Below, piece by piece: positions 46,286 to 63,758 of a DNA stretch of 64,000 nt. Where the stretch lies: NCBI GenBank assembly GCA_022767285.1, contig JALENY010000032.1, forward strand, positions 1-64,000, read 5' to 3'. This DNA comes from Lachnospiraceae bacterium. GTDB lineage: Bacteria > Bacillota > Clostridia > Lachnospirales > Lachnospiraceae. Under the pieces are notes generated by a model that was not told the DNA's origin, ran no database searches, and worked only from the letters and a program-made list of their open reading frames with translations. The stretch's first letter is position 1, and each line of letters opens with the position of its first letter. Position numbers and translations under genes: made by a program.

Positions 46286-48586
46286 TTAAAAACTATAACA
46301 TACAATCAAACTTTCTTTCAGTTCATACATCCGGTCTTTCACCCATACCTTGATCGGATCAGGTCGGCTGCTGACAAGGGAAACCCTATTGTGGTCTATC
46401 GAGATACGAACCTCCTTTTCACAAACAACCACACCGAATTCTACTCCGCTGATTTCATCCGGCAGACACGGTGTAATATGCACGCCATTTTCATCCATCC
46501 GAAATCCGGCAAAACCACGTACCACAGCCATCCAGATACCGCCCATGGCAGCCGCATGAATTCCTTCGTTAGAAGAATAGGGATTTGGCCCCATATCAAT
46601 ATCAATTGCCCCCAGAAAGCTTTCATAAGCCGCTTCTTTTTTCTGATTATCACTTGCCACGATCGAATAAACCGCATGGCTTAAAGAAGAATCATGAATC
46701 GTCTTCGGCTCGTAATAATTCCAGGTAGCTTCTTTTATCTCCTTATCAAACAGCTCCGGCATAAGAGCAAGCAGCATAACCGTATCAGCCTGTTTCAGCA
46801 CCTGCATTTCATTGACCTGTTTTCTGCTATATTTTTTCAGGATCATCTGTTTCACATCATCCTGCCTGTATTTCAGCACATCAATAATCTCTTTCGTCAT
46901 GAACGTGTCGTCCTGAGGCAGAACCCCATCTTCCCGTGGCTGCGGCAAATACAGATATTCAAGATAATGAACAAGTTTTTCACGGATGTTTTCTTCCGCA
47001 AAGCTCTCACTTATCCTCTGAATTTCTTCCGGGGAACATCCATTCAGAATTTCAAGTGCTTTTTTCACCACAAAACAAGCCATGTAGTTGGTATATGTAT
47101 TATTATCGATGTGCTCCGTATATTCATCAGGCCCAATAATATCCAGAATCTCATAGCGGTTTTTCTCTTCTTTGAACACACTTCGACTGAGCCAGAACAG
47201 AGCGCTTCCAATAATAATATCATTTCCGCCCTTTTCCATAAACTGCTTATCCAGTGTTGCCAGATAATATAGCCATACGGCATATGCAATATCTGCTGTG
47301 ATATGATGCTCCTTAATTCCTGCCCATACATGCGCAGCCTTTCCGGTCATAATATCCATGCTTGCAAAAAGCGGGGTTTCCTCCTCGCCGGTTATGGCAC
47401 TTTCCCATGGAAACATCAGACCTTTATAACCTTTCTTTCTCGCATTCTTTTTTGCCTGTTTGATGCGTTGTACACGATACTCCAAAAGATTTCTGGCTTT
47501 TTTGGGATCGGTATACTGGAAATAGGGAAGCATGAAAATCTCTGTATCCCAGAATACGTGCCCTTTGTAACCTTCACCGCTCAATCCTTTTGCTGCGATG
47601 GAACTGTGATTGTCTGTCGGCACCATAGCACTCAGATGATACTGGGCAAAACGGATTGCCAACTGAAGTTTTTCATTTTCCGTCTTAATCAAAATGTCAT
47701 TTTTATCCCAGAATTTTTTCATAGATCCGGCGCTTTCCTCAAAAAGTTTTTCATATCCCTTTTCGAGTGAGTTTTGTGCGGCACTAACCACCATTTCCTG
47801 TGCGATTTCGTCGTCCATCTGATATAGATCATGGCTGGTATACAAGACAGCCAGTTTTTCATAAACTGCGCTTTTGCTTTTTTCCACACGAAAACTGCGC
47901 TTTTCATGAAGTTTTCTGCGTTCCATTCCGAAACTTCTTGTGTCTTCTTTCACATGTTCCACACGAGTCCCGCTGCAATGGTACATCGTAATCCCGCTGT
48001 CTGTAGTTTTCTGGTCTAAATACAGCAATTTGTAATTCAGAACCTTCTTATTTCCATCCACAAAATGCTGTACACCGGAGTTGGTCATTCTTGCATTAAT
48101 TCCGGTCTCGACACTCACCAGGGTTTCTTCATCCAGCGGCGTGATTTCCACCCGACTTCCGTACAGATGTCTTTTAGCCCTGGAAACACATCTGCGGAAA
48201 ACAAGCTGATACCGTTTTCCCATCGGCGACTCCCACAAAACTTCTCTACGAAGTTCCGCCGTATACATATTCAAATATCTTGAATAATTCAACAGCTTCC
48301 CATGCAGCATAGAAAAGATTTCTCCATTTAGAATAATTTTCATTTCACAGGAATCAGCCAGATTGGGAAGTTCGATGGTCTCTCCCTGGCAGCTGTTAAA
48401 ACAGCCTGCGGCAAACATACCGCGTGTCTGGAAAGGGTACACTTCCTCAAGCGCAGAGCGGATTCCCATATATCCATTCGCAAGGTAGAGGATGCTTTCC
48501 GCCTTTCCTTGGTACTGCATGAGGAACTCATCTTCACCGATCAGCCAGTTTCTCAGCTTTCCCGTTCCTTTGCCATATGTAATCAT
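46286..48586 (-). CDS. GH65 disaccharide phosphorylase (YcjT/kojibiose phosphorylase-like)
   Basis: A 766-residue inverting phosphorylase of GH65 that splits an alpha-glucosyl disaccharide with phosphate into beta-glucose 1-phosphate and a sugar. The (alpha/alpha)6 barrel contains HVFWDTEIFMLPYF and the catalytic-acid motif IIGPDEYTEHIDNN. Length matches kojibiose-type members. Start 48586 has GGAGG six bases upstream. The neighbouring YcjS-, YcjR-, YcjQ- and YcjM-like genes and a beta-phosphoglucomutase make YcjT (kojibiose phosphorylase of E. coli) the best comparison. Nigerose, trehalose or maltose specificity cannot be excluded. Confidence 0.9.
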   Translation of the reverse strand: MITYGKGTGKLRNWLIGEDEFLMQYQGKAESILYLANGYMGIRSALEEVYPFQTRGMFAAGCFNSCQGETIELPNLADSCEMKIILNGEIFSMLHGKLLNYSRYLNMYTAELRREVLWESPMGKRYQLVFRRCVSRAKRHLYGSRVEITPLDEETLVSVETGINARMTNSGVQHFVDGNKKVLNYKLLYLDQKTTDSGITMYHCSGTRVEHVKEDTRSFGMERRKLHEKRSFRVEKSKSAVYEKLAVLYTSHDLYQMDDEIAQEMVVSAAQNSLEKGYEKLFEESAGSMKKFWDKNDILIKTENEKLQLAIRFAQYHLSAMVPTDNHSSIAAKGLSGEGYKGHVFWDTEIFMLPYFQYTDPKKARNLLEYRVQRIKQAKKNARKKGYKGLMFPWESAITGEEETPLFASMDIMTGKAAHVWAGIKEHHITADIAYAVWLYYLATLDKQFMEKGGNDIIIGSALFWLSRSVFKEEKNRYEILDIIGPDEYTEHIDNNTYTNYMACFVVKKALEILNGCSPEEIQRISESFAEENIREKLVHYLEYLYLPQPREDGVLPQDDTFMTKEIIDVLKYRQDDVKQMILKKYSRKQVNEMQVLKQADTVMLLALMPELFDKEIKEATWNYYEPKTIHDSSLSHAVYSIVASDNQKKEAAYESFLGAIDIDMGPNPYSSNEGIHAAAMGGIWMAVVRGFAGFRMDENGVHITPCLPDEISGVEFGVVVCEKEVRISIDHNRVSLVSSRPDPIKVWVKDRMYELKESLIVCYSF

Positions 48587-48605
48587 CTTCTGCCTCCTGC
48601 TATTA

Positions 48606-49652
48606 TTATTTTTCAAATTCAACAACTTGATGTGTTGCCGCAGATTCATACAGGGCATCAATGATCTGCATTAAGGTCACGCCCTGGTCTGCCGTAATCA
48701 GCGGGGTATCATTTTCTGCACAGCATCGGATGAAATTGCTGATACTGATATTTCGTTTATCCAGTTCCTGAACAAACGGAAGCTTCATATCCACCAGATT
48801 GCCATTCTTTTCCGTGTAAACTTCTCCGTCAAAAACAGACGCACCCGACAGGTCGCCATATATTTCCACATTCATTCTCTGCTTTTCTTTGCAGTTCAAC
48901 GCAAATGCAGTCTCAATCTGTAAAGAAAGACCGTTGCCAAACTGTACATAGCCAAAAAGTCCATCCTCTACCGTGAAACGTTCCGGATTCCAGACGCCCA
49001 TCAGACCCACACCGCCTCGTTTTCCAATTCGGTCAGAACTGTTGGCCATAGCATACAGGGGTTGGGGATACCCCAAAAGATACAGAGCCGTATCCAGCAT
49101 ATGAACGCCGATATCCACCAGCGGGCCTCCTCCCTGCATATTTTTGTTGGTAAAATTTCCCCAACCCGGAATACCACGCCTTCTGACTGCCTGTACCCGT
49201 GCCTGATACAGTTCCCCAAACTCACCGTTGTCAATCATCGTTTTTACCATCTGCACTTCTGGTGCATAGCGGTAATGAAGATTATAAGTCAGCAGTTTCC
49301 CTGCTTTTTTGGCCTCATCTGCCATATGCTTTGCCTGTTTCGCATTTAGCGCCGGGGGTTTTTCACAGAGTACATGGCAGCCTGCGCGGAGTGCGTCGAT
49401 CGTCAGGCTCTCGTGAAATTTGTTGGTAACACATACGGTCACCAAATCCAGGTCCTCTTTTTCCAGCATTTCCTGATGGCTTGTATACCAGGCCGGAACC
49501 CCAAACTGTTCCGCCGCATTTCTTGCACTTTCGCCATTTACATCGCACACTGCTGCAATCTCAGCAAGGTGGTTGTTCTTCATACAATTCGGGAAATGCG
49601 AATGCAGAGCTTCCTGACCTGCCCCGATAATTCCAATCTTTAATTTCCCCAT
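48606..49652 (-). CDS. Gfo/Idh/MocA dehydrogenase (YcjS-like)
   Basis: A 348-residue NAD-dependent sugar dehydrogenase. It has the Rossmann motif KIGIIGAGQEALHSHFPN, the catalytic-lysine motif VLCEKPPALN (about residues 92-101) and DIGVHMLDTALYLLG with the catalytic Asp/His. E. coli YcjS oxidises glucosides at C3 to 3-keto-glucosides; conserved order beside YcjR-, YcjQ-, YcjT-like genes makes the same reaction likely here. ATG 49652 follows GGAGGGAG. The gene lies 19 bp upstream of the GH65 gene. Confidence 0.9.
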   Translation of the reverse strand: MGKLKIGIIGAGQEALHSHFPNCMKNNHLAEIAAVCDVNGESARNAAEQFGVPAWYTSHQEMLEKEDLDLVTVCVTNKFHESLTIDALRAGCHVLCEKPPALNAKQAKHMADEAKKAGKLLTYNLHYRYAPEVQMVKTMIDNGEFGELYQARVQAVRRRGIPGWGNFTNKNMQGGGPLVDIGVHMLDTALYLLGYPQPLYAMANSSDRIGKRGGVGLMGVWNPERFTVEDGLFGYVQFGNGLSLQIETAFALNCKEKQRMNVEIYGDLSGASVFDGEVYTEKNGNLVDMKLPFVQELDKRNISISNFIRCCAENDTPLITADQGVTLMQIIDALYESAATHQVVEFEK

Positions 49653-49735
49653 TCTACTCTCCCTCCTAACCAATATGTTTCGCCTTTATCATTAGAAATC
49701 ATACATTATATCAATATGCTGCATCCAATTTTGCC

Positions 49736-51421
49736 TTAAACCAGCCAGACGATCTGATATGGTTTCAACGTGGTAATCTCTGTCTCTCTTCCGTTCTGAA
49801 GCAGATCTTTTCCGTAAAATGTTTTTTCAAGGCACGCCTCTTTCGCAGTAATATTAATCAAAACTGTAATTTTCTGTCCCGACTCTTTATTCTCACGTTC
49901 CAATGCAAAAATTTCACTCCCCAGATCAAGAATTATCTGTCCTGCAAAAGGTGAGAAAGCACTTTGTTCTCCTCTTATTTTCAGCATGCGGCAATAACCG
50001 TCAAATACTGTCTTTCTCAGGCTGCCCTCTTTCGAAAGCTCACCAAGAAGCTTTGTAACCTCCAGCTTCTCCCGGTTGATCCTGCGAGGAATACCGGACT
50101 CTTCCACACCCTGAATCCAATTTCCGGAGCCTAAAAGGCTATGATAATATATACCCGGTATGCCTTGGAGAGACAGCATGACCGCCTGAGAAGCCAAGAA
50201 ACAATCCGCCCGCTTCTTCTCATCTTTTTCATGTATGTCCGTCACAGCTTCCAGATAATTGATATTTAATTCGTAGGGACTCTGACTTCCATCGGAGTTC
50301 GTTTTATAACTAATCCTGCCTCCATGTTCCAAAACGCAGTCAAAGAGCAGCTGCTTTTCTTTCTCATTTAAGATACCATCCACCGGCCGCACACCGATGC
50401 CGTCATGGGATGCCAGGAAATTAAAGAATGTCGTTCCTTTCGGAAGAGGGGTTTGATCCAGGCTTTTTGCCCATGCAGTCAGTTTTCCAGAATTTCCGGA
50501 CAACATGGTATATAGCGTAAGAGGCGGCAGCGGGAACTGGTAAACGAGCTGCGCCTCATCTCCGTCGCCAAAATAACTGATATTTTCCAGATGCGGGACA
50601 TTTGTCTCAGTGATAATCATGGTTCCCGGATAAAATTCCTGAATCACACAGCGCAGAAGTTTAATCAGTGTATGGGTCTCCTTCAAATGCATACAAGTTG
50701 TACCCAGCTTTTTCCAGGCAAATCCGATAGCATCCAGCCGAATAAACCTGGCCCCTTTTGACGCATACAGGAGCAGGACTTCCAGGATCTCTTTCAGAAG
50801 ATATGGAGACTCAAAATTCACATCGATCTGATCATCCGAAAAGGTAGTCCAGAACCATTTTTTCCCATCTTTTGTATCAAATTCCGTCAGAAGAGGTAGC
50901 GCACGCGGTCGGGTGACTGTTGAATAATCCGCGTCTTTATCGCATTCAATATAATACCCTGTATAGGGAGCTTCACCTTCACAGCATTTTCGGAACCACT
51001 CATGAGATTTTGAGGTATGATTGATCACCCCATCCATCATAACACCGACCCAGCTTCCCAGATTTTCCACATCTTCCCAGCTTCCCATGACCGGATTGAT
51101 GGAGTTATAATCGGAAACAGAAAAACCGTCATCTGATGTATAGGGAAAAACCGGAAGCAGATGCACATTGGTAATAACTCCTTCACAGTTTTCACGCAAA
51201 AATTCATCCAGCGTATGAAGGGGTTTCTCCCCATCCCGGTACATACAGTCACCGTAAGCAATCAGGATACAGTCTTTTTGGGACAGCTCCTTCACCTGGT
51301 CATTCGCCTCCGGCATCCATTTTTCATATAATTCATCCAGGAGGCGGATCGCCAGATCCTTTTTCTCCCCCCGGTAAAGCATATCGAGATATTTGTTTCT
51401 TATTGCTCTATGGCCTTTCAT
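49736..51421 (-). CDS. GH13_18 glycoside phosphorylase (YcjM-like)
   Basis: A 561-residue member of the sucrose phosphorylase subfamily, which releases alpha-glucose 1-phosphate with retention. Nucleophile Asp230 (IRLDAIGFAWKK), acid/base Glu272 (ITETNVPH) and Asp340 (ASHDGIGVRP) are all present. The HDGIGVRP segment resembles glucosylglycerate phosphorylases such as E. coli YcjM rather than true sucrose phosphorylases, so glucosylglycerate is the leading substrate. GGAAG lies just before the ATG. It sits between the YcjS- and YcjR-like genes; in E. coli ycjM is first, so the order is changed. Confidence 0.88.
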   Translation of the reverse strand: MKGHRAIRNKYLDMLYRGEKKDLAIRLLDELYEKWMPEANDQVKELSQKDCILIAYGDCMYRDGEKPLHTLDEFLRENCEGVITNVHLLPVFPYTSDDGFSVSDYNSINPVMGSWEDVENLGSWVGVMMDGVINHTSKSHEWFRKCCEGEAPYTGYYIECDKDADYSTVTRPRALPLLTEFDTKDGKKWFWTTFSDDQIDVNFESPYLLKEILEVLLLYASKGARFIRLDAIGFAWKKLGTTCMHLKETHTLIKLLRCVIQEFYPGTMIITETNVPHLENISYFGDGDEAQLVYQFPLPPLTLYTMLSGNSGKLTAWAKSLDQTPLPKGTTFFNFLASHDGIGVRPVDGILNEKEKQLLFDCVLEHGGRISYKTNSDGSQSPYELNINYLEAVTDIHEKDEKKRADCFLASQAVMLSLQGIPGIYYHSLLGSGNWIQGVEESGIPRRINREKLEVTKLLGELSKEGSLRKTVFDGYCRMLKIRGEQSAFSPFAGQIILDLGSEIFALERENKESGQKITVLINITAKEACLEKTFYGKDLLQNGRETEITTLKPYQIVWLV

Positions 51422-51479
51422 TTATCTTCCAACTTTCTGTTTTTCTTTCAGCTTCCGCATACCTTTTGTATTCCTTCTA

Positions 51480-52289
51480 TTACAGCCGGGCCTTTTTCAT
51501 ACAGTCTCTGATATATCCTACAGACTGCTTATACAGGTTTTCCTGGTCTTCACCCAGAACGCGGCACTCAAAAGCCATAATTCCGTCAAAACCAATTTCC
51601 TTCAACCCTTCGAAACCGTGTACGAAATCGGTATGGCCATCACCCGGCTGATAACGATGGCTGTCTGCAATGTGCACATGACCTATCAAATCAGCCCATT
51701 TAATCAAACTCTTCTTGATATCCTGCTCTTCGATACTCATATGGAAGAAATCAGCCATGATCTTTACATGTTCCAAATGCCCATCCTGAATTACCGTTGC
51801 TGCTGCATCAAGAGTATTCAGCATATGATCTTCGTAACGATTCAGCGGTTCCAAATATACAACCGTACCGGACTTTTTGCAGACATCCTCAAACTGCGAC
51901 AAGGAATCAATCAGTACGCCCTTGTCCGCCTCAACAGGTCTCGGTGGGGTCATCGGCGGCAAGCGCAGGGAAAACATCCCCCATGCAGCCGGTACCACGA
52001 TACCTTTTGCCCCAAGTTCACCGGCACGTTCCAGAATAATCTTAATATCCTCAATAGCCGTCTGTCTTCTGTATTCAATAAAGTCACCAATCCATCCCCG
52101 GTATCCGCCGCATACGCTGGTTACCGGAACCCCGGTTTCTTTTACAGCAGCTTTCAATTCATCAAATTGATTCAGCAGCATAGCACCGTCTGCTTCAAAT
52201 CCATCAAATCCCGTTTCCTTAATCTGAAGCAATTTTGTCTTAAAATCGCTGGAATAAAAAGGTTTATCCTGTGTTGCTAAACGAATCAT
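51480..52289 (-). CDS. TIM-barrel sugar epimerase (YcjR-like)
   Basis: A 269-residue xylose-isomerase-like TIM barrel. Expected metal ligands are the Glu in VYLEPLNRYEDH, the Asp in IMADFFHMS, the His in GHVHIADSHR and the Glu in MAFECRVLG. E. coli YcjR epimerises C4 of 3-keto-glycosides, linking glucosides with gulosides. Gene order next to YcjQ- and YcjS-like genes supports the same chemistry. It starts 12 bp after the YcjQ-like gene, clearly in one operon. Confidence 0.88.
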   Translation of the reverse strand: MIRLATQDKPFYSSDFKTKLLQIKETGFDGFEADGAMLLNQFDELKAAVKETGVPVTSVCGGYRGWIGDFIEYRRQTAIEDIKIILERAGELGAKGIVVPAAWGMFSLRLPPMTPPRPVEADKGVLIDSLSQFEDVCKKSGTVVYLEPLNRYEDHMLNTLDAAATVIQDGHLEHVKIMADFFHMSIEEQDIKKSLIKWADLIGHVHIADSHRYQPGDGHTDFVHGFEGLKEIGFDGIMAFECRVLGEDQENLYKQSVGYIRDCMKKARL

Positions 52290-52301
52290 GTCATCTACCT
52301 C

Positions 52302-53351
52302 CTAAAATTTTACGCCCATCTTGATACTTGATTGCGGTTCCTGATCCACATATTTCATGTATGCTTTGTCAGATTCCTCAAAATCAACAACCGGAAAGAT
52401 AATATCTTCGCAGTTTAAGTAACCGTTTGTAAGCATATCCCAGCATACATCCTCAATTCTGTGTCTGTTCCATCTGGGATAATCCGGAAGCGGCTCGGAA
52501 CATGCTCTTGAAAACACGATTTTTGCATTGTTAAAATGAGCCTCTCTTCCAAGCTCCAGCATGGGGAATGGTTTTGCAAATGCCACGAAGGAAATGGTTC
52601 CACCGTAAGCCAATCCGCGAAGGCCGCTCTGCAGAGCAGTTACGTGGCCACTGGTTTCAATGATCACATCCACTCCTCTTTTATCGGTCAGTTCTTTTAA
52701 TTTGAATCCTACATCAACAATGCCCGGATCCAGTCCATAATCTGCACCATTTTTCACTGCAATCTCCCGCCTGTGTTCAAGCGGATCAATAACGATAACC
52801 GGTGATGCACCCAGTTTTTTACAAATCTGTGCGGCAATCTGACCGATTGCTCCCATTCCGTAAATAGCCACCGCATCACCCGGACGTACATGACCGTCTC
52901 GCACACCGCCAAGCGCAAACTGTGCAGGATCGTAACATACAGCATTTTTCCAGAGACTTAAATCGTTCAGCTTACGGCAGCGATAATTACCCACAGCTTT
53001 GATAATGTGAGTCTCTCGAATTCCACCGTATGAACATATATAATCACCAAGATCGAATTCCGTTACCAGGTCACCTTTTTCGATTACTTCTCCGACCCAC
53101 TGGTTGCCGAGGTTCCACTCGCCGAAAACAACTCCTTTCTCCTCTTCCTTTCTCGGAAGAAACAACTGCCATTCATCATCATATTTTTCTTTAACATGAA
53201 CACTCATCTGGCGGAAATCCGTCAGCTCAGTGCCATGCTTTGGAGCCGCAAACAGCACTTTACAGCGCACCTCGTCCGCAGCAATAGGTCTGTCCTCATA
53301 TTCTTTAAAACCTGCTACTCTCGGTTCTGTTGCAACTAACATTTTGCTCAT
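52302..53351 (-). CDS. MDR-family oxidoreductase (YcjQ-like)
   Basis: A 349-residue medium-chain dehydrogenase with the nucleotide-binding motif AVAIYGMGAIGQIAAQICKK (about residues 160-180). E. coli YcjQ reduces or oxidises the C3 position of gulosides, completing the YcjQRS route. The catalytic-zinc segment reads AAPKHGTELTDFR, without the usual Cys, so zinc coordination must differ from alcohol dehydrogenase. It lies 12 bp before the YcjR-like gene and 28 bp after the ADP-ribosylglycohydrolase-fold gene. Confidence 0.88.
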   Translation of the reverse strand: MSKMLVATEPRVAGFKEYEDRPIAADEVRCKVLFAAPKHGTELTDFRQMSVHVKEKYDDEWQLFLPRKEEEKGVVFGEWNLGNQWVGEVIEKGDLVTEFDLGDYICSYGGIRETHIIKAVGNYRCRKLNDLSLWKNAVCYDPAQFALGGVRDGHVRPGDAVAIYGMGAIGQIAAQICKKLGASPVIVIDPLEHRREIAVKNGADYGLDPGIVDVGFKLKELTDKRGVDVIIETSGHVTALQSGLRGLAYGGTISFVAFAKPFPMLELGREAHFNNAKIVFSRACSEPLPDYPRWNRHRIEDVCWDMLTNGYLNCEDIIFPVVDFEESDKAYMKYVDQEPQSSIKMGVKF

Positions 53352-53379: not shown

Positions 53380-54732
53380 TTATATGATCTGCCGGATACA
53401 CCGGTCAGTCAATTCTTTAAAACTTACGATTCCGCCGGAGCCAATCCGGGTAATCAATTTTCCGTTTAAAGGCTTTTTCCATTTTTCCGGAACCGCTTCA
53501 ATTCCATACATCATACCGAATGCGGACCCTGCGGTTGCACCGTTGCAGTCCGTATCAAATCCTGCTTCAATTGCCACATTCATAACCCTGTCAAAATCTT
53601 TTCCTCCGGCCAAAAGTGCCAGACAGATAATCATATCGTTCGGAATCACATGGCACCAATCGTGAAGATTAGTCTCATCGTACTGTTTATGGATTTCTTC
53701 AATCATCTGCTGCACATCTTTGGTCTCATTCCATTTTACCAGGAATCCGGTCAATGCGGCATGCAATCTGGACTGTTTCGGGATATAGTCCATAGCATGC
53801 ATAATGGCATCTTTCGGACTGTCACAAACCGCACTTTCTGAAATCAATGCCGCACAAAATGCGGATGCATAAATACCATTTTTCGTATGTGTAACCACTG
53901 CGTCGCGAACCGCCATAGAAGCAGCGGCATGCGGATCTCCCGGATTTATGTACGCGTATCCGTCCACGCGGATCTGTCCGCCCAGCCATTCCCGGTAAGG
54001 ATTGCCATAATCCGCACTTCGGGGCGGCAAAATTCCATTTACAATGTTTTTGTAAGCCATGCGTTCTGCCGTACAAGCCATAAAAACCGGAATATTCGTT
54101 GTGAAAAATTCCGCTACATCCATGGGAACAAAATCACGCCCATACTTCTCCACAATGGAAAGCCCCATCACTGTATAGTTTGTATCATCATCTTCCGGCA
54201 TACAGGATACATTATTGATCCAGCTCTTTTTCTCATTTCCATATGCCCCTGGGTAGTCGGACACATTGTACCGTTCTTTGATCTCCTGAGGCACATCTGA
54301 GGACATATATTGTCCGACCGGGTAATTGTTTGTGTCTTTCAAAAAACCGACAATACGTTCTCGCGTCCAGCCTTCCACCGGCTGTCCCAACAGACATCCC
54401 GCAGCCCGGGCAGTCCACGCACCCAACAGCCTTTCTCTCAGATTTTCCGCTTTTCTTTTCTTATTTAGGGGAAAGCATGCAAGAATTTCTTCCTCTGTCT
54501 CCGGCTCAACATAAGGGAAATCCGGTCGTACCGGCATAGCCCGGAACTTCTCGTACAGTTCCAGTGCCCTTTTTTCCCCTTCTACAGGATCCGAAAGATT
54601 TACAATCTCTTTTACCAACGATTCATATTCATCTACCGGTTTTCCCTCTTCTCTGCTCTGTCTCAATTCTGTTTCCAGGTAATTCTTCCGGCTGATATAG
54701 GCCAACCGGACATGTTCCAGAATATTCTCCAT
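53380..54732 (-). CDS. ADP-ribosylglycohydrolase-fold protein
   Basis: A 450-residue protein of the DraG/ADPRH family (PF03747), with an added N-terminal helical region of about 100 residues. Binuclear metal motifs are visible: EDDDTNYTVMGLSI in the first half and AIEAGFDTDCNGATAGSAFGMM near the C-terminus. Family members cleave N- or O-ribosyl bonds. In sugar operons their substrate is mostly unknown; in E. coli yegU sits beside a PfkB kinase, and here a ribokinase lies in the divergent operon. No counterpart exists in the E. coli ycj cluster. Confidence 0.87.
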   Translation of the reverse strand: MENILEHVRLAYISRKNYLETELRQSREEGKPVDEYESLVKEIVNLSDPVEGEKRALELYEKFRAMPVRPDFPYVEPETEEEILACFPLNKKRKAENLRERLLGAWTARAAGCLLGQPVEGWTRERIVGFLKDTNNYPVGQYMSSDVPQEIKERYNVSDYPGAYGNEKKSWINNVSCMPEDDDTNYTVMGLSIVEKYGRDFVPMDVAEFFTTNIPVFMACTAERMAYKNIVNGILPPRSADYGNPYREWLGGQIRVDGYAYINPGDPHAAASMAVRDAVVTHTKNGIYASAFCAALISESAVCDSPKDAIMHAMDYIPKQSRLHAALTGFLVKWNETKDVQQMIEEIHKQYDETNLHDWCHVIPNDMIICLALLAGGKDFDRVMNVAIEAGFDTDCNGATAGSAFGMMYGIEAVPEKWKKPLNGKLITRIGSGGIVSFKELTDRCIRQII

Positions 54733-54813: not shown

Positions 54814-55653
54814 TCAACCCTTTTCGCCTCCGGCTGTCAGCCCGCCGGAAATAAATTTTTCTACTGCAGAAAAAGTAATAATTACCGGTATCGCTGTCAA
54901 CAGGGAAGCTGCCATCATACGTCCCCACACGTAATCCATAGAACCAAAAAGCTGCTTCAAGCCAACGGAAAGTGTCAGTTTTTCCTGTGATGACAGGAAT
55001 GTAAAGGAAAACAGGAAATCATTCCAGGCAATCATAAACACATAGATAAAAGCGGAAGAAATGGCTGGAACGGAAAGTGGAAGCACAATTTTGTAAATAA
55101 CCTGGACGCGGTTCAAACCATCAATCATCGCCGCCTCTTCCAGTGAAGACGGAATTGTCTCAAAATATCCGGAAAGCATATAAATAGCTGCCGGTAAGGT
55201 AGAAACCAGATTAGCCACTACAACAGCCCACATATTATCATTCAATCCAATGGAGCTCATAATCTTAAACAACGGTACTACAAGAAGAATTCCAGAAAAC
55301 ATATATACAACAAGAGTAGACTCTTTAAAAACGATTCTTCCCGGGAAAGTCAGCCTCGCCAAACTATATGCAGCAAGTCCACCTACAACAATCGCAATCG
55401 TAGCAGTTGAAAAAGCAATTTTAAAACTGTTCAGGAAATATCTTCCAAACGGAAAAATTTGCGGATTCAGCACATCCTTAAAATGCTTTAAAGTTACGTC
55501 TTTCGGAATAATCTGAGGAGGAAATGCAACAGCTGCTTCCGAAGTTTTAAATGCAGTTGTAATCATAATGTAAAAAGGAAACAGTGCAATCACGAGCACA
55601 AGAATTACTGCCAAATAATGCAGTATAGATTTTATAATTTTTTTCTGTTTCAT
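54814..55653 (-). CDS. ABC sugar transporter permease, MalG type (YcjP-like)
   Basis: A 279-residue permease with six hydrophobic helices. The cytosolic EAA loop reads LEEAAMIDGLNRVQVIYKIVLPLSVPA (about residues 175-202), which docks the ATPase. It overlaps the upstream permease gene by four bases. No ATPase gene is in the window, so a shared MsmK-type ATPase elsewhere is likely. Confidence 0.95.
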   Translation of the reverse strand: MKQKKIIKSILHYLAVILVLVIALFPFYIMITTAFKTSEAAVAFPPQIIPKDVTLKHFKDVLNPQIFPFGRYFLNSFKIAFSTATIAIVVGGLAAYSLARLTFPGRIVFKESTLVVYMFSGILLVVPLFKIMSSIGLNDNMWAVVVANLVSTLPAAIYMLSGYFETIPSSLEEAAMIDGLNRVQVIYKIVLPLSVPAISSAFIYVFMIAWNDFLFSFTFLSSQEKLTLSVGLKQLFGSMDYVWGRMMAASLLTAIPVIITFSAVEKFISGGLTAGGEKG

Positions 55654-56540
55654 TTTCGCACCGCCTTCCTTCCAAATAGTACAACAAACGAGAATACAAT
55701 AACAAACAAGACAATTGTGATTGCTGCCGCACCCCCGTTATCATGAATTGCAAATGCTGTCTGATACAGATATACTCCGAGTACGGGTACCTGTTTCGTA
55801 AATAGATATATATCATCAAATTTATAAAAATTCCAAATCGTTCTCAGAGAAACAATCGCCGCAATGGATGGTAAAATTTCCGGGAATGTAATTGCCCAGA
55901 AACGCTGCCATGCATTAGCGCCGTCCACTTGTGCTGCCTCATAAAGGCTCATATCAATTGCCTGTAAAGCCGCCAGAATCATCAGAAAACTATACGGAAA
56001 AACGCGCCAGATATCATAAATCACAACCAATGCCACTGACCATACCGGATGATCCATCCACATGGGAGCTGTTTCAAATATATGCAAAACATCCACCAGC
56101 AAATAATTTACGACTCCATACAAGCCATTGAACATATATTTCCATACATAAACGGTTGCCACCATCGGAGCTACGTAGGACAAAAGAATCAGACTTCGGG
56201 CAATTCTTCTCCCTTTAAATTCTTTGTTCATAAGAAGGGCTACCAGAAGTCCTACTACCGTAGACCCTACTACTGTCACCAGTACATAGACAACCGTCAC
56301 AAGAAGAGCCTTATAAAAATCCCCATCCGAGAACAGCTTCGCATAATTGCTCCATCCAACAAACTTGCTTGGCCTGTTTGGATTTAATGCTACTTTTTGA
56401 AAACTGAGTACAATATTGTAAAAAATCGGATAAATGATAACAGCGCCAATCAGAATAAGCGTGGGCAATATCAGCAATATACCGAGCGTACGTTCCTTTC
56501 TCTGTATTGATCCGTATTTTTTCTTACCTTGTTTACTCAT
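55650..56540 (-). CDS. ABC sugar transporter permease, MalF type (YcjO-like)
   Basis: A 296-residue permease with six membrane helices. It has a short cytosolic N-terminus (KKYGSIQRKERT) and the EAA loop SLYEAAQVDGANAWQRFWAITFPEI (about residues 200-225). It forms the heterodimeric channel with the MalG-type partner, whose gene overlaps by four bases. It follows the binding-protein gene after a 129-bp gap holding a terminator-like hairpin. Confidence 0.95.
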   Translation of the reverse strand: MSKQGKKKYGSIQRKERTLGILLILPTLILIGAVIIYPIFYNIVLSFQKVALNPNRPSKFVGWSNYAKLFSDGDFYKALLVTVVYVLVTVVGSTVVGLLVALLMNKEFKGRRIARSLILLSYVAPMVATVYVWKYMFNGLYGVVNYLLVDVLHIFETAPMWMDHPVWSVALVVIYDIWRVFPYSFLMILAALQAIDMSLYEAAQVDGANAWQRFWAITFPEILPSIAAIVSLRTIWNFYKFDDIYLFTKQVPVLGVYLYQTAFAIHDNGGAAAITIVLFVIVFSFVVLFGRKAVRK

Positions 56541-56669: not shown

Positions 56670-58049
56670 TTATTCAATTGCAGCTACTTCCTCTTCCAAT
56701 TCTGCCTGACAAGCAGCCATAGCCGCATCAATATCTTCTCCCTGTACTAAAATAGAGTTGATACATCTCGGAATGATAAACTTACCGGAGATATTACCCA
56801 TAGCCGGATGAACTTCACCATCTTTTACGCCGAGCATCTGAAGATTTTCAAATGCATCCGGAATTGTTGCTGCTGTTTCACCAAAGGCTTTTAATACTTC
56901 GTTATCAAGATATGCCGGATCATCTGCCACGTCTTTTAATACCGGATTCGATCCGCCTGCAGACATATGACACCATTTGATGTTCTCCTCTGCTTCGCCC
57001 ATAAATGCTACGAATTTAATTGCAGCTTCTCTTTCTTCTTCAGAAATCATGTTAGAGATAGTCATGGTAGATGTCATACCAAAGCTTCCTACCTCATCTT
57101 TCTCCGGAACTGCAAATCCGATATCATCTGCAATACCCTGTTCAACCAATGCACCCATGATGTAAGTGGAATACATAGCCATAGCAGCATGTCCGCCTAC
57201 GAAAGCATCTTTCACTTCCTCAACACCGTTAGAGCCCGGCATTGTGTACTGATACATCTGCTGATAGAACTCAAGAATCTCTTTCATTTCCGGAGTGTTA
57301 AACTGCGGGTTACCATCTGCATCAAACAGATCAAATCCTACGGAACCGGTGAAGTGATTCAAAATCTGCTCTGTAAAGTCAGATTCTTCTGTCGGAAATA
57401 TAATACCATATTGTTTGTTTGCCGGATCATTCAGAGCTTCTGCTGCTGCCAGAATATTTTCCCATGTAGTCGGAGCTTCCAGACCTTTTTCTTCAAACAA
57501 AGATTTGCGATACCAGATGCCGGATACCCAACCAGAAACCGGGGTACCAAGGTAATCATCTACGCCCGGAGCTTTTACCATCTCAAGAACACCACTGTAA
57601 AATCTGTCTTTACCGATCAATTCAATTACTTCTGTATTTGCTTCCAGATCGATTGCTTCTTCAGCATTCATAAGTCTCAGCTGATCCACACCACCCTCAA
57701 CGATCGCCGGAAGTTCGCCGGTTCCCATCAAAGTAGTAATCTTTGTCCAGAATCCATCCTCCGGTATCGGCATCTGAGTAACTACGATACCCGGGTTCTC
57801 AGCCATAAAGTCATCGATAATGCTCTGAATAACCTGAACACGCTCTTCTTCTGGCTGTCCATGGAGAAACTGAATTTCAACCACATCACCATCTGCTGCA
57901 CCGCTTTCTGATGTGTCGCCCTCTGAATCAACGCTATCCTCTGCTGCATCGTTTTTTGATTCAGAATCTTCTTTTTTTTCGCCGCAGCCCGCAAAAGCTA
58001 CAACTGCCATAACTGCGATCATCATCATTGCTACAATTCTTTTTTTCAT
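56670..58049 (-). CDS. ABC sugar-binding lipoprotein (YcjN-like)
   Basis: A 459-residue extracellular solute-binding protein. It begins MKKRIVAMMMIAVMAVVAFAG then Cys22, a signal peptide with lipobox FAGC, followed by an acidic Ser/Glu/Asp linker. The mature part (IQFLHGQPEEERVQVIQSI, then FVGGHAAMAMYSTYIMGAL) matches the family 1 sugar-binding fold. ATG 58049 has GGAGGG upstream; the longer frame from 58163 is not used. It is the first gene of the main operon, behind a promoter with two LacI-type operators. The ligand is probably an oligosaccharide glucoside. Confidence 0.94.
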   Translation of the reverse strand: MKKRIVAMMMIAVMAVVAFAGCGEKKEDSESKNDAAEDSVDSEGDTSESGAADGDVVEIQFLHGQPEEERVQVIQSIIDDFMAENPGIVVTQMPIPEDGFWTKITTLMGTGELPAIVEGGVDQLRLMNAEEAIDLEANTEVIELIGKDRFYSGVLEMVKAPGVDDYLGTPVSGWVSGIWYRKSLFEEKGLEAPTTWENILAAAEALNDPANKQYGIIFPTEESDFTEQILNHFTGSVGFDLFDADGNPQFNTPEMKEILEFYQQMYQYTMPGSNGVEEVKDAFVGGHAAMAMYSTYIMGALVEQGIADDIGFAVPEKDEVGSFGMTSTMTISNMISEEEREAAIKFVAFMGEAEENIKWCHMSAGGSNPVLKDVADDPAYLDNEVLKAFGETAATIPDAFENLQMLGVKDGEVHPAMGNISGKFIIPRCINSILVQGEDIDAAMAACQAELEEEVAAIE

Positions 58050-58081
58050 TAAAAACCCTCCTTTTGATAAAGTCCCTATAT

Positions 58082-58095
58082 CCAAAACGTTTTCG
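58082..58095. promoter_or_regulatory. LacI-type operator O1
   Basis: CCAAAACGTTTTCG, an almost perfect 14-bp palindrome, lies in the leader of the binding-protein gene, 33 bp before its ATG. It may act as a second site or roadblock for the cluster regulator. Confidence 0.75.
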
Positions 58096-58199
58096 ATAAT
58101 TTGTAAAAAATAAAATGAAATAAACCATGTTTCAATATCACAACCGCTGATTTTTGTAGACATTGATTCCTGTGTATTTCACTTTGTATTTATACCCGC

Positions 58200-58249
58200 C
58201 GAAAGCGTTTTCATATTTTTATAATAATCGAAAATCTGAAATTTGTAAA
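58200..58249 (-). promoter_or_regulatory. Main operon promoter with operator O2
   Basis: On the minus strand TTTACA (58244-58249) and TATTAT (58221-58226) are 17 bp apart. Operator CGAAAGCGTTTTCA (58200-58213) lies at the start point, so repressor binding would block initiation. O2 also resembles a catabolite-repression cre site. Confidence 0.75.
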
Positions 58250-58307: not shown

Positions 58308-59300
58308 TTAAACACTTTGCCTTTCAATCAGATGGTGCGGCACATACTCTATGTAATTCACCGTTTCTCCGTTCTGCATCTTTATGGCAAGCTCGGTCGC
58401 CTTATACCCCATCGCTTTAAAATCCTGACAAACCGTTGTGAGTGTCGGCTTAATATAAGCGCCCACCTGGACACCGTCAATGCCGGAAACCGCTATATCC
58501 TGCGGTATTTTTTTTCCCATGTCTTTCAAAGCCCGTATCACACCGATTGCCATAAGATCCGATGCTGCAAGAATTGCATCCAGGCCTTTCCGTTCCTGCA
58601 CCAGAATTTTTGTTTCCTCATATGCCCGTTCTTCAAAGAAATCCGCATATCGCACACTTTTCTGCGGAAGTTCCAGACCAACTGCCCGCATAGCCCGGAT
58701 AAAAGCAGTCTCACGCACACGGCTGATATCCGAGTCAAAAGAACCGTTTATCATGCCGATATTTCGTTTCCCTTTTTTGTAAAAAAGGCGGACAATTTCT
58801 TCAATTGCCTGGTCGTTGTTTGTGGCAACAGTAACCGGTGTTTTGTCCACATCGATTCCCACACACGGAATATCCATAGTATCAAGTTCTCTATAATATT
58901 CATCTGTGGATTTCAGCCCATATAAGACGATGCCCCCGACATTTTTTTCCTTGCACAGCATCTTCAGCGATTTGTGTTTTTGCTTTTCCATGTTTGTAAA
59001 GAGCACCATCAGCTCATATCCCATCTTATCGCAGCAGGACTGTGCACCTTTGAGCAGGCGGAAAATAATGTTGCCGTTCATATCCGTCTCTTTTACGTCA
59101 GAAAACAGCAGCGCAATCACCTTTGACTGTTTTAATGCCAAATTTCTGGCCGATGAATTTGGTGTATATTTTAACTCCGCGCACACTCCCAGAATCCGTT
59201 CTTTTGTCACCGGACTCACATCACTGTAATTATTCAGAGCTCTCGAAACCGTAGTGATACTCACGCCCGCCGCTTTCGCCACATCTTTAATTGATGCCAT
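58308..59300 (-). CDS. LacI family transcriptional regulator (YcjW-like)
   Basis: A 330-residue LacI/GalR repressor. The N-terminal helix-turn-helix is ASIKDVAKAAGVSITTVSRALNNYSDVSP, followed by the hinge PNSSARNLALKQ and a sugar-binding core (VIALLFSDVKETDMNG to LDAILAASDLMAIGVIRALKDMG). GGAGGAG precedes the ATG. It is placed between the two operons it probably controls. Five matching palindromes surround it, one in its own leader, so autoregulation is likely. The effector is probably the transported sugar or a 3-keto product. Confidence 0.94.
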   Translation of the reverse strand: MASIKDVAKAAGVSITTVSRALNNYSDVSPVTKERILGVCAELKYTPNSSARNLALKQSKVIALLFSDVKETDMNGNIIFRLLKGAQSCCDKMGYELMVLFTNMEKQKHKSLKMLCKEKNVGGIVLYGLKSTDEYYRELDTMDIPCVGIDVDKTPVTVATNNDQAIEEIVRLFYKKGKRNIGMINGSFDSDISRVRETAFIRAMRAVGLELPQKSVRYADFFEERAYEETKILVQERKGLDAILAASDLMAIGVIRALKDMGKKIPQDIAVSGIDGVQVGAYIKPTLTTVCQDFKAMGYKATELAIKMQNGETVNYIEYVPHHLIERQSV

Positions 59301-59352: not shown

Positions 59353-59366
59353 CGAAAACGTTTTGC
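59353..59366. promoter_or_regulatory. LacI-type operator O3 (regulator gene)
   Basis: CGAAAACGTTTTGC lies between the regulator promoter and its start codon, about 55 bp before the ATG. A half-like TCAAACGCTTTA is adjacent at about 59340. Confidence 0.7.
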
Positions 59367-59562: not shown

Positions 59563-59591
59563 TTGACGAAAACGTTTTTGTAATTTATAAC
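59563..59591 (+). promoter_or_regulatory. Right operon promoter with operator O4
   Basis: TTGACG (59563-59568) and TATAAC (59586-59591) are 17 bp apart. Operator CGAAAACGTTTTTG (59567-59580) fills the spacer, a textbook repressor position. The transcript would then run through the MITE-like element into the ribokinase gene. Confidence 0.75.
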
Positions 59592-59632: not shown

Positions 59633-59827
59633 TGATGCCAGGGTCAAAAGGTCATGATTTTCATGCTTGCATGAAAAATCATGACTTTGGGACCCGCTAA
59701 ACATGAGAAAGCAGCCATTTTTCAAAGAAAAATGAGCGGATTTCGAATGTTTTTCGGATTTTGGGAGCGCAAAGCGCAGAAAAATCCAAAGGCATCATGG
59801 GGTCAAATGCTTTTGACCCCAACATCA
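59633..59827. mobile_element. MITE-like element of 195 bp
   Basis: Imperfect inverted ends TGATGCCAGGGTCAAAAG (59633-59650) and CTTTTGACCCCAACATCA (59810-59827) bound the element. CATAA occurs immediately outside both ends (59628-59632 and 59828-59832), consistent with a 5-bp target duplication. Inside are two strong hairpins: one around GTCATGAT...ATCATGAC within GGGTC/GACCC, the other GGATTTT...AAAATCC. No protein is encoded. It lies just before the ribokinase ribosome site, so it forms part of that mRNA leader. Confidence 0.7.
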
Positions 59828-59846: not shown

Positions 59847-60779
59847 ATGAAAAGTGGAAAAATACTGATTCTAGGCAGTTCAAACATGGATGTGGTTGTA
59901 GAGGTGGATCACATGCCCTCAGCAGGTGAAACCATTATGGCATCTTCAAAAGTTCTGATTCCGGGAGGAAAAGGTGCTAATCAGGCATACGCTGCCGCTA
60001 TTCTCGGCGGTGATGCCATCTTTCTCGGAATGATTGGGTCCGATGACGACGGAAAAGCTCTCATTGAAAATCTGAAAAATGTCGGCGTAGACACTTCACA
60101 CATGGATGTGACCGGACTCCTGCCGAGTGGAAGTACGTTTTTAATGGTAAACAAAGAAGGAAATAATAGTATTATCGTCATTCCGGGAGCCAATACCCTC
60201 TGTACGGAGGACTATATCATGCGCCATGAACAGGCACTGTCCGATTGTGACATCTTCATGACTCAAATGGAAATACCGGAAACATGCGTACACAGCACAA
60301 TCATCCGCGCAAAAAAAGCCGGAAAAATCACGATTTTGGATCCGGCACCCGCACCGGAATCCATACCAGACAAAGTGTTGAAAGCAGTGGATTATCTTAC
60401 ACCTAATGAAACAGAACTGGAACATTTGACCAATATACCTGCCAATAGTATAGAGGCCATAAAACGCGGTGCAAAGATTTTGCTGGAAAAAGGAGTCGGA
60501 AATGTACTGGTTACAATGGGAGCAAATGGATCTCTTCTGGTCAATTCCGAAGGGATCCGGCACTTCCCCTCACCAAAGGTGAACGCCGTGGACAGCACCG
60601 CAGCCGGAGATACCTTCAATGCTGCATTTGCCGTATCACTCAGCGAAGGAAACAGCGTAGAAGACAGTATTTCATTTGCAAGCCATGCAGCTGCTCTATC
60701 TGTCTGCAAAAAGGGGGCTCAGATATCTATCCCGACCCGGGAAGAAACAGAAACTTTTATCAATAAAATAAACTACTGA
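59847..60779 (+). CDS. rbsK: Ribokinase (PfkB family)
   Basis: A 310-residue PfkB kinase that phosphorylates ribose or a similar sugar at O5. Typical motifs are the opening ILILGSSNMDVVVEVDHMP, GGKGANQAYAAA (residues about 38-49) and the ATP/anion-hole motif VDSTAAGDTFNAAFAV. AGGAGAA before the ATG comes right after the MITE-like element. It is first in the right-hand operon under operator O4. A ribokinase is not part of the E. coli ycj cluster; it suggests that ribose or a similar sugar is released here, perhaps by the ADP-ribosylglycohydrolase-fold protein. Confidence 0.92.
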   Translation: MKSGKILILGSSNMDVVVEVDHMPSAGETIMASSKVLIPGGKGANQAYAAAILGGDAIFLGMIGSDDDGKALIENLKNVGVDTSHMDVTGLLPSGSTFLMVNKEGNNSIIVIPGANTLCTEDYIMRHEQALSDCDIFMTQMEIPETCVHSTIIRAKKAGKITILDPAPAPESIPDKVLKAVDYLTPNETELEHLTNIPANSIEAIKRGAKILLEKGVGNVLVTMGANGSLLVNSEGIRHFPSPKVNAVDSTAAGDTFNAAFAVSLSEGNSVEDSISFASHAAALSVCKKGAQISIPTREETETFINKINY

Positions 60780-60805: not shown

Positions 60806-61927
60806 ATGACGAATCGGCAACGTTTAAAAGCAGTTTTACATTATGAGAGCTATGACCGTATCCCTGTTGTAAGCTTCGGTTTCTGGACGGAAACCCTTCA
60901 GAAATGGTGCCAGGAGGGGCACATTCCCAAAGATCAGGTATATGACCGTCCCATGGCTGATGGAGAATATGAACAGATCAACCGGACTCTGGGCTTCGAT
61001 TTTAACTGGCACTCACTGATCGGCCTTCCTATGGGACTTCTGGATCCTGTTTTTGAAGAGACTGTACTGGAAAAATATCCGGACGGGAAACAAAAAATCC
61101 GCAACAAAGAAGGTTCCATCGTTATCGTTTCCCCAAATATTGTATCTATTCCAAAGGAGGTAGGCCATACACTGGTTGACCGGAAAAGCTGGGAAGAACA
61201 CTATATTCCACGTCTTTCTTACGGGAAAGAGGCACTGGATCTCAACATGTACGAATCTCTTAAAAAAGAAAATGAGACACGCGAAGAACCTCTGGGCATT
61301 TTCTGCGGTTCTCTTCTGGGACGCTTGCGAAACTGGTTGGGTCTAATGGATTTCAGCTTCTTGTGGTATGATGACCCAGAATTATTTACAGACATCGTAA
61401 ACACCATCGGCGATACGATGTATCGTCAGACGAAAAATATTCTGGAAACCGGTGTGCAATTTGATTTTGCCCATTTCTGGGAAGATGTCTGCGGCAACGA
61501 TGGGCCCTTGGTACTTCCGGAAGTTGTTCGGGATGTGGCCGGACCGCATTATAAAAAAATCACGAACCTGCTAAAAGAATACAATATCGATATTGTATCC
61601 CTGGACTGTGACGGATGCATTGACCAATTGGTCCCGATCTGGCTGGAGAACGGTGTAAACACCATGTTCCCCATTGAAGTCGGCCGCTGGAACGCAAGCA
61701 TAGGTCCCTGGAGAGAAAAATACGGAAAATCTCTGCTTGGTGTAGGAGGCATGAATAAAAAGGTATTTGCACAGGATTATGCTGCCATCGACAAAGAAAT
61801 CGAACGCATGAAGCCGTTTATTGAAATGGGCGGATTCATCCCCTGTCCGGATCATAGGATTGCGCCAGATGCAAAATGGGAAAATGTTCAGTATTACTGT
61901 GATAAAATGCATGAACTGAATTTTTAA
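60806..61927 (+). CDS. UroD-fold protein 1 (MtaA/CmuA-like)
   Basis: A 373-residue protein of the uroporphyrinogen decarboxylase superfamily, starting TNRQRLKAVLHYESYDRIPVVSFG. It lacks the arginine-rich porphyrin site of true UroD at its N-terminus, and groups better with methyltransferase-type members. The expected zinc motif HxC is replaced by LDCDGCID (Cys-rich, Asp for His), and a later GVGGMNKKVFAQD follows. AGGAGG precedes the ATG, 26 bp after rbsK. No corrinoid protein lies in the window. The function is unknown; it is a divergent paralogue of the protein encoded at 62733-63758. Confidence 0.8.
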   Translation: MTNRQRLKAVLHYESYDRIPVVSFGFWTETLQKWCQEGHIPKDQVYDRPMADGEYEQINRTLGFDFNWHSLIGLPMGLLDPVFEETVLEKYPDGKQKIRNKEGSIVIVSPNIVSIPKEVGHTLVDRKSWEEHYIPRLSYGKEALDLNMYESLKKENETREEPLGIFCGSLLGRLRNWLGLMDFSFLWYDDPELFTDIVNTIGDTMYRQTKNILETGVQFDFAHFWEDVCGNDGPLVLPEVVRDVAGPHYKKITNLLKEYNIDIVSLDCDGCIDQLVPIWLENGVNTMFPIEVGRWNASIGPWREKYGKSLLGVGGMNKKVFAQDYAAIDKEIERMKPFIEMGGFIPCPDHRIAPDAKWENVQYYCDKMHELNF

Positions 61928-61937
61928 TCCGCATTTT

Positions 61938-61951
61938 CGAAAACCTTTTCG
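61938..61951. promoter_or_regulatory. LacI-like operator O5 before pgmB
   Basis: CGAAAACCTTTTCG is a palindrome except at its CC centre, otherwise identical to the other operators. It lies between the first UroD-fold gene and pgmB. An internal promoter or roadblock is possible. Confidence 0.5.
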
Positions 61952-61998
61952 CAAAATACTATATCAAGCCCCAAATATGGATTCAAAAGGAGATCATT

Positions 61999-62640
61999 AT
62001 GCAAAAAATCAAAGCAGCACTTTTCGATTTAGACGGCGTGCTTGTTGACACCGCAAAATATCATTATTTGGCCTGGAAACGCCTGGCCCGGGAACTGGGA
62101 TTTGAATTTACAAAGGAAGACAATGAAGCATTAAAAGGTGTCAGCAGAATGAAGTCTCTGGATATTCTTTTATCCGTAGGCGGACTTACTTTTGACGAAG
62201 AGACAAAAAAGCAGCTTGCCACGAAAAAAAATGCCTGGTACGTTGAATATCTGGAAGGTATCGATGAGAGCGAATTACTCAAAAACGTAGAGAACACACT
62301 GAAACATCTTCGCGCATGCGGCATCCGCACTGCCATCGGATCTGCCAGCAAAAATACCCCTCTCATTCTGAAAAAGACCGGGCTGGATCAATATTTTGAC
62401 GCAGTTGTGGACGGAAATGACGTATCAAAAGCCAAACCGGATCCCGAAGTCTTCCTTCTTGGGGCACAAAGATTAGGCTGTGCTCCCAAAGAATGCATGG
62501 TTTTTGAAGATTCTCTTGCGGGAATCCAGGCAGCAAACACCGCCGGTATGTTCAGTATATATCTCGGAAGTACCGATGCAGGTTCAAACGCGGACATGGT
62601 CATTCGTGATATGACTGAATTTCATTTTCCGTTTGAGTAA
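61999..62640 (+). CDS. pgmB: Beta-phosphoglucomutase (YcjU-like)
   Basis: A 213-residue HAD-family mutase converting beta-glucose 1-phosphate to glucose 6-phosphate. The catalytic pair of aspartates is in ALFDLDGVLVDTAKYHYLAW (residues 9 and 11), the cap has GVSRMKSLDILL, and the core motifs IGSASKN, SKAKPDPEVFLL and FEDSLAGIQAAN are complete. It should process the beta-Glc1P made by the GH65 phosphorylase in the opposite operon, as YcjU does for YcjT in E. coli. AAGGAG is six bases before the ATG. Confidence 0.95.
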   Translation: MQKIKAALFDLDGVLVDTAKYHYLAWKRLARELGFEFTKEDNEALKGVSRMKSLDILLSVGGLTFDEETKKQLATKKNAWYVEYLEGIDESELLKNVENTLKHLRACGIRTAIGSASKNTPLILKKTGLDQYFDAVVDGNDVSKAKPDPEVFLLGAQRLGCAPKECMVFEDSLAGIQAANTAGMFSIYLGSTDAGSNADMVIRDMTEFHFPFE

Positions 62641-62732
62641 CGGCTATTAGAATCATACACCAGTATTGTATATAACCGGCAACACACTTTACTCTTTGTG
62701 TACCAATTCTATCACAAAAGGAGGCTGTTTTT

Positions 62733-63758
62733 ATGAGCCCCAAGCAATCCGTCATAGATGCATTTTTACATAAAGAACACGATGTAATCCCTTATCATTT
62801 CAATTTCACTCAGAGAGCTCTGGACCGTATGATCGAGTACACCAAAGATGTCGAAATTGAACGCAAATTAAAAATTAACACCTGCATGAATTACATGCAG
62901 TATCAGGGGCGTCCAACCGAACTTGCCGATCACCCTGGATTCTTTCTGGACGAGTTCGGTGTCATCTGGAATCGAAGCGGAGTTGACAAAGACATTGGCG
63001 TCATTGACCATCCCACTATCGAAGATCTGGAAGAAAGCGATTACCATCTTCCGCCTATGGACGAGGAAAAACTTCGCCGGGAATATGAGTTTCTCACGTC
63101 CCAAAACAAAGATAAATTTACCATGGCAGGTTTCGGACTTTTCTTTTTTGAGCGTTCCTGGAGCCTTATGAGTATGGAAAATCTTCTTGCAAACATGATT
63201 CTCTGTCCAAAAGAACTGGATGCCTTTCTGGACAAGCTTTGCGATTATTATATGTCTATGCTGGATATCGCACTGGAATATGATATTGATGGCGTCTACT
63301 TCGGTGATGACTGGGGCCAGCAAAGAGGTCTGATTATGGGGCCGAGCCACTGGCGCCGTTTTATTAAGCCACATATCAGCCGGTTATACAGCCGTGTCAA
63401 ATCCGCCGGGAAATTCATCGTTCAGCATTCCTGCGGCGACTGCCTCGAAATCTTCCCTGATTTGATCGAAATGGGCCTTGATTGCTATCAGACCTTCCAA
63501 CCGGAAATCTATGATATTAAAAAGGTAAAAGAGACCTATGGTCAAGATCTTTCCTTCTGGGGCGGTATTTCTACTCAGCGGTGTCTGCCTTTTATGACAC
63601 CGGAAGAAGTACAGCAGGAAACCATCCGCATTATGCGCACTATGAAACCAGGCGGCGGATATATTGCGGCTCCTACCCACGCCATGCCTTATGATATTCC
63701 ATCGGAAAATATTCTGGCAATGGTTGATGTCTTCCAAAATCAGAATAAATATCTTTGA
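62733..63758 (+). CDS. UroD-fold protein 2 (MtaA/CmuA-like)
   Basis: A 341-residue UroD-superfamily protein with the metal motif of cobamide methyltransferases: QHSCGDCLEIFPDLIEMG (His-x-Cys, about residues 229-246) and a later Cys in STQRCLPFMTPEEV. Other conserved parts are GVYFGDDWGQQRGLIMGPSHWRRF and the C-terminal GGGYIAAPTHAMPYDIPSENI. It is therefore closer to MtaA/CmuA than to heme-synthesis UroD. AGGAGG precedes the ATG, 92 bp after pgmB. No methyl donor or corrinoid partner is in the window. A role in demethylating or rearranging a sugar substrate is possible but unproven. Confidence 0.85.
   Translation: MSPKQSVIDAFLHKEHDVIPYHFNFTQRALDRMIEYTKDVEIERKLKINTCMNYMQYQGRPTELADHPGFFLDEFGVIWNRSGVDKDIGVIDHPTIEDLEESDYHLPPMDEEKLRREYEFLTSQNKDKFTMAGFGLFFFERSWSLMSMENLLANMILCPKELDAFLDKLCDYYMSMLDIALEYDIDGVYFGDDWGQQRGLIMGPSHWRRFIKPHISRLYSRVKSAGKFIVQHSCGDCLEIFPDLIEMGLDCYQTFQPEIYDIKKVKETYGQDLSFWGGISTQRCLPFMTPEEVQQETIRIMRTMKPGGGYIAAPTHAMPYDIPSENILAMVDVFQNQNKYL

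Follow-up and report, generated by a model that had tools for sequence, protein, structure and literature searches.

Two divergent UroD-superfamily proteins in a bacterial sugar regulon and their possible role in corrinoid-dependent sugar O-demethylation

The uroporphyrinogen decarboxylase (UroD) superfamily is best known for heme synthesis and for vitamin-B12-linked methyl transfer, and the locus described here, from an acetogen-type anaerobe, raises the question of what two of its members do among sugar genes. The window (the whole stretch of DNA that was analysed, 64,000 nt long) covers the beginning of contig C32 in a Lachnospiraceae genome of 2.67 Mb (G000). In it, two UroD-superfamily proteins, here called A and B, flank pgmB, as a first-pass annotation made from the sequence had proposed and as the coordinates, open reading frames and PF01208 scores bear out. 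The features concerned are the following:

46286..53351, minus strand: ycj-like glucoside arm (GH65, Gfo/Idh/MocA, GH13 sucrose-phosphorylase-like, AP_endonuc_2 isomerase, Zn-ADH)
53380..54732, minus strand: ADP-ribosylglycohydrolase-family protein of the sugar arm (PF03747)
54814..56540, minus strand: two sugar ABC permeases (by sequence; they group with other ABC permeases)
56670..58163, minus strand: sugar ABC substrate-binding protein (true start probably near 58049)
58084..58095, minus strand: operator core CGAAAACGTTTT, upstream of the probable true start of the substrate-binding protein
58200..58211, plus strand: operator core CGAAAGCGTTTT, upstream of the substrate-binding-protein arm
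58308..59300, minus strand: LacI-family regulator between the two arms
59353..59364, plus strand: LacI-type operator core CGAAAACGTTTT
59563..59591, plus strand: probable operon promoter, TTGACG-17-TATAAC, read directly from the sequence
59567..59578, plus strand: LacI-type operator core CGAAAACGTTTT, overlapping the -35 end and the spacer of the operon promoter
59633..59797, plus strand: Clostridiales-1 RNA (RF01699), full-length, in the operon leader (125.9 bits against 48)
59847..60779, plus strand: ribokinase (PfkB), which opens the operon and ends 26 bp short of A (TIGR02152, above cut-off)
60806..61927, plus strand: A, UroD-superfamily protein of 373 aa, DxD..H class (PF01208, AlphaFold model, alignment)
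61999..62640, plus strand: pgmB, beta-phosphoglucomutase (TIGR01990, 230.6 bits against a cut-off of 189.4)
62733..63758, plus strand: B, UroD-superfamily protein of 341 aa, HxC..H class (PF01208, AlphaFold model, alignment)

Based on the ORF coordinates, ribokinase, A, pgmB and B form a compact plus-strand operon (gaps of 26, 71 and 92 bp), divergent from the minus-strand sugar arm. The established comparison system is the E. coli ycj glucoside cluster, which the present one resembles in its substrate-binding protein and permeases, GH65 and GH13 phosphorylase-like enzymes, sugar dehydrogenases, isomerase, pgmB and LacI regulator, and to which it adds A, B, the ribokinase and the ADP-ribosylglycohydrolase-family protein. 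The last of these (53380-54732, minus strand), encoded beside the ABC permeases, may have a sugar-linked substrate instead of a protein.

The tie between the two arms can be read from their operators. The 12-mer core of a LacI-type palindrome, CGAAARCGTTTT, has four copies in the 2.67 Mb genome, all within C32:58084-59578 (two precede the substrate-binding protein, the other two the ribokinase-A-pgmB-B operon); the same pattern reversed but not complemented, used as a control, has 14 matches genome-wide. With up to one mismatch allowed, there are 10 matches in the window versus 1 in shuffled sequences. Four genome-unique cores spread over both arms would place the operon under common regulation with the transporter, phosphorylase and dehydrogenase genes, and the simplest reading is that the regulator encoded at 58308-59300 controls both arms. 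The assignment of A and B to a sugar cluster is thereby strengthened. A promoter scan gave no excess over shuffles; the proposed promoter is based on direct reading and on the position of the operator. The Clostridiales-1 RNA starts just after this promoter, in a leader with a fold z of -9.3, and it was not found in six other A loci or in the C24 locus of the same genome, hence is not a common property of A loci. An imperfect copy of the operator palindrome, CGAAAACCTTTTCG, lies at 61938-61951, in the gap between A and pgmB.

Membership of the superfamily is clear for both proteins, which pass the PF01208 gathering cut-off of 23.9 (27.8 bits for A, 88.6 bits for B). Structure prediction, one of the checks suggested at the outset, gave a UroD barrel in each case (AlphaFold pLDDT of 91.9 for A and 89.9 for B), with HemE and MtaA structures as the best structural matches (for A, Z 24.1 to 2inf and Z 21.1 to 4ay7). 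MetE, lyases and glycosidases rank below these among the fold matches of the A model, which we read as common barrel similarity, and a sequence search of solved structures with A alone returned chance matches only. The fold is thus the one found in the methylcobamide:CoM methyltransferases MtaA/MtbA (4ay7) and in the Mlp proteins (Kountz and Balskus, PMC10418091). No curated NCBIfam cut-off is reached by either protein: on the HemE model (TIGR01464, cut-off 302.95) B scores 23.3 bits and A has no match, and on the MtaA/CmuA model (TIGR01463, cut-off 235.4) B scores 50.7 bits and A again has none, in agreement with the earlier view that both diverge from HemE and MtaA. A HemE function is rejected for A and B on these scores; A resembles HemE in its fold and in the histidine at the third position, but neither protein has a HemE-level score and no heme genes were seen nearby.

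How the two proteins differ from their characterised relatives is best seen in the active site. In the alignment of the collected UroD proteins there are three main classes: HxC..C (MtaA-type), HxC..H and DxD..H. In A, D267 and D269 occupy the HxC columns of MtaA and H350 its third-ligand column, so that the DCDG segment reported to replace HxC falls with its two aspartates exactly in both columns. This DxD..H arrangement is fixed in 40 of 40 distinct full-length A relatives from several phyla, and W225-E226-D227 and E291 are likewise invariant in the A set. In B, the HxC pair (H232, C234) that had been described is present, but the third cysteine assigned to its zinc motif is not upheld: C284 (in STQRCLPF) lies in a column where orthologues have C, V, L, I or F, and it is not aligned with the third zinc ligand of MtaA, a position taken by H316. 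The HxC..H pattern is found in B and in 5/5 B orthologues, and the class also includes three other UroD proteins of the same genome and relatives. The HxC..C zinc ligands of MtaA-type proteins are thus absent from A and B, although the putative ligands sit at the same barrel positions, in the models at the C-terminal ends of the strands.

The main rival to the reading of A that we prefer is a corrinoid-free, metal-dependent sugar enzyme, in which DxD..H and E291 would hold a divalent metal for an isomerisation, epimerisation, elimination or C-C cleavage of a glucoside intermediate. The replacement of HxC..C by an invariant Asp/Asp/His set, the placing of these residues at strand ends and the position of A in a sugar regulon with no corrinoid gene at the locus all speak for it; the genomic patterns described below speak against it, and we regard it as rather unlikely. 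To our preferred reading, that A is a sugar-ether:corrinoid methyltransferase (an O-demethylase, or "MT I") whose corrinoid protein is encoded elsewhere in the genome, we give about an even chance.

The UroD superfamily and anaerobic ether cleavage by some of its members are already known: CdmB (PDB 9rui), MtvB, VdmB, OdmB and MtoB are anaerobic MT I enzymes of this superfamily, acting on methoxylated aromatics or haloalkanes, some of them without zinc, in three-component systems with a corrinoid protein and an MT II (PMC13222342). The likeness of A to CdmB and the other ether-cleaving MT I enzymes lies in the UroD fold and in the proposed role, transfer of an ether methyl to a corrinoid protein. 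In profile comparison with CdmB, the A-set profile has no match to its structure (a point against an O-demethylase) and the B-set profile reaches it weakly (E 0.0065). In the open-licence literature searched, we found nothing relevant on sugar O-demethylation by corrinoid or UroD enzymes, nor any mention of the DxD..H class, of a link between it and sugar loci or of a sugar O-demethylase role for it.

In the proposed mechanism, the ABC transporter would import an O-methylated sugar or glycoside, and A would take its methyl group and pass it to the Co(I) of a corrinoid protein from elsewhere in the genome, while the kinase, the phosphorylases and pgmB would process the freed sugar. Where MtaA has its thiol-binding HxC..C zinc site, A would use DxD..H to hold a metal or the hydroxyls of the sugar, not a thiol. 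For B, a probable role is that of another methyltransferase in this regulon, differing from A in acceptor or substrate. Methyl transfer from an O-methylated sugar, as first suggested for this pair, is accordingly worded here as the best available reading, with the zinc triad of B removed from it. The fold, the site classes, the operon, the operators common to both arms and the corrinoid co-occurrence and adjacency in relatives are observed; the methyl transfer, its methylated sugar, the partner and the role of B are inferred from them.

Such a mechanism requires a partner, and the A-B locus has no corrinoid protein, activase or H4folate methyltransferase, which counts against A as an O-demethylase. 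The first-pass annotation was right that no heme or corrinoid genes lie near, but this does not hold genome-wide: the search for partners that it called for found two stand-alone corrinoid proteins, on contigs C29 and C10. The former stands with an activase (AcsV/RACo-like), an MtaA-type protein and a CobW-like protein, in a layout resembling the mlp clusters of PMC10418091. Either of the two (mlp-type on C29, MtaC-type on C10) could receive the methyl group. An acetyl-CoA synthase is also present, offering a Wood-Ljungdahl methyl sink. Apart from AcsE, no H4folate:corrinoid methyltransferase was found in the genome, a further point against the O-demethylase. The C10 genes (C10:15321-18085, or L079:7322-10086), encoding MtaB and an MtaC-like corrinoid protein together with a CobW-like GTPase, are probably a methanol methyltransferase system.

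Across genomes, A and corrinoid proteins go together. Of 397 family genomes, 11 have a close A orthologue (E below 1e-100), and a stand-alone corrinoid protein is encoded in 11/11 of these (our own included) versus 20/98 sampled family genomes that lack A (counted on frames under 400 aa; Fisher p=2e-7); among genomes of at least 3 Mb the counts are 9/9 versus 9/37 (p=4e-5). Outside the family, 10/10 A-bearing genomes have such a protein, making 21/21 overall, although these statistics ignore relatedness and general methyl metabolism and are therefore support, not proof. Shared ancestry and a generalist, methyl-metabolising way of life may lie behind the co-occurrence. Additionally, in UroD-rich relatives UroD proteins far outnumber corrinoid proteins (in first-look counts, about 40-49 versus a few in G214 and G179), so not every UroD can own a partner; this excess also weighs against an O-demethylase.

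A and B share genomes above chance (A is found in 5/6 B-bearing genomes, p=3e-8), and they lie at different loci in G204, G214, G338 and G179. An obligate A-B pair or complex, which we had considered, was set aside on account of these separate loci. The separation, together with the nine UroD-superfamily proteins of our genome alone, could also mean that A and B are incidental here, paralogues of a large promiscuous family with no step in the glucoside pathway. We consider this improbable, given the compactness of the four-gene operon, the genome-unique operators common with the transporter arm and the intact, conserved active-site residues.

The neighbourhoods of the relatives bring corrinoid genes closer to A. 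An A relative stands beside a corrinoid protein, an MtaA-type protein and DUF2284-like proteins (by sequence reading) in L071, where the corrinoid gene is 49 bp away, and in L072, where the MtaA-type gene lies in between; in L100, A-type, corrinoid and MtaA-type genes follow in a row within a sugar ABC locus (corrinoid gene 185 bp away). In a sugar transporter operon of G694 and G716, an MtaA-type gene overlaps an A-type gene (L091) or makes up a single 725-aa ORF with it (L092), and the only PF02607 protein of these genomes, which adjoins a GH106-like enzyme and a class II aldolase, shares one sugar locus with A at a distance of 13 kb. Members that immediately adjoin corrinoid and MtaA-type genes retain DxD..H, which, with the 21/21 co-occurrence, argues against the corrinoid-free metal enzyme and weakens the view of A and B as working without corrinoid partners.

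HxC..H proteins related to B also lie near corrinoid genes (31 bp in L110, 2.7 kb in L107). None of the corrinoid-adjacent UroDs seen in three corrinoid-rich genomes belongs to the DxD..H class, which counts against A as an O-demethylase, as do the mostly housekeeping neighbours of A relatives in L015, L016 and L017. In the tree, corrinoid-adjacent members are scattered over the UroD rows with at least four label changes, so adjacency marks no single clade. Corrinoid-gene linkage is found in a minority of loci, and none of the annotated neighbours of A and B relatives showed linkage to heme genes, so that the clustering with heme genes that would have made the present location incidental was not encountered.

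Sugar genes recur around both proteins. A is found beside GH78 and an oligopeptide/oligosaccharide-type ABC system (L063), GH95 (L065), GH4 (L066) and GH106 (L067), with fucosidase-like GHL6 proteins nearby in L019, L069, L073 and L096; the loci of B orthologues carry GH2, GH43, a sulfatase or sugar ABC transporters. The rhamnosidase- and fucosidase-type neighbours hint at methylated deoxysugars in those relatives, and the ycj-like arm points to a glucoside here, so the substrate probably differs between loci. Taken with the genome-wide patterns, the relatives suggest that at least one of A and B demethylates sugars without oxygen. The wider proposal, that A represents a cross-phylum DxD..H subfamily (Bacillota, Armatimonadota, Hydrogenedentota, Planctomycetota, Lentisphaerota and Chloroflexota) of corrinoid-dependent sugar O-demethylases feeding methyl groups to acetogenesis or thiols, we hold tentatively, at somewhat less than an even chance.

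A Cys/Met PLP enzyme is encoded beside a second DxD..H UroD protein in three genomes (L069:15440-16615, L070:4243-5406, L073:16859-18037), each with a sugar ABC transporter and a GH106-like gene also beside the pair, and a similar gene adjoins A itself in L067. These enzymes would fit a role of A and B in methyl-sulfur or methyl-selenium metabolism (mlp-like, with a thiol acceptor), the sugar regulon being linked through carbon supply only, and so would the mlp-type corrinoid and activase cluster (PMC10418091) in our genome and in most of the A-bearing family relatives examined. We nevertheless think this role improbable, since A has no thiol-binding HxC..C, B has no third cysteine and neither reaches the MtaA-family cut-offs.

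O-methyl sugars occur in plant and microbial glycans, and methyl ethers are chemically difficult to remove when no oxygen is available. A sugar-specific branch of the superfamily, if true, would explain many "uroporphyrinogen decarboxylase" annotations in anaerobes that have no heme context, and would tie the use of glycans to B12 and acetogenesis. Should the methyl reading prove wrong, an invariant DxD..H on a UroD barrel still points to an uncharacterised activity, and the genome-unique operators provide a handle for the substrate search. In our own genome, the UroD paralogues on C24 (L010), on C28 (L011) and at C32:70076-71341 (L009:10077-11342) also lie beside regulators or sugar ABC genes, the neighbours being, by sequence, of LacI, RbsA/C and rhamnose-mutarotase-like types.
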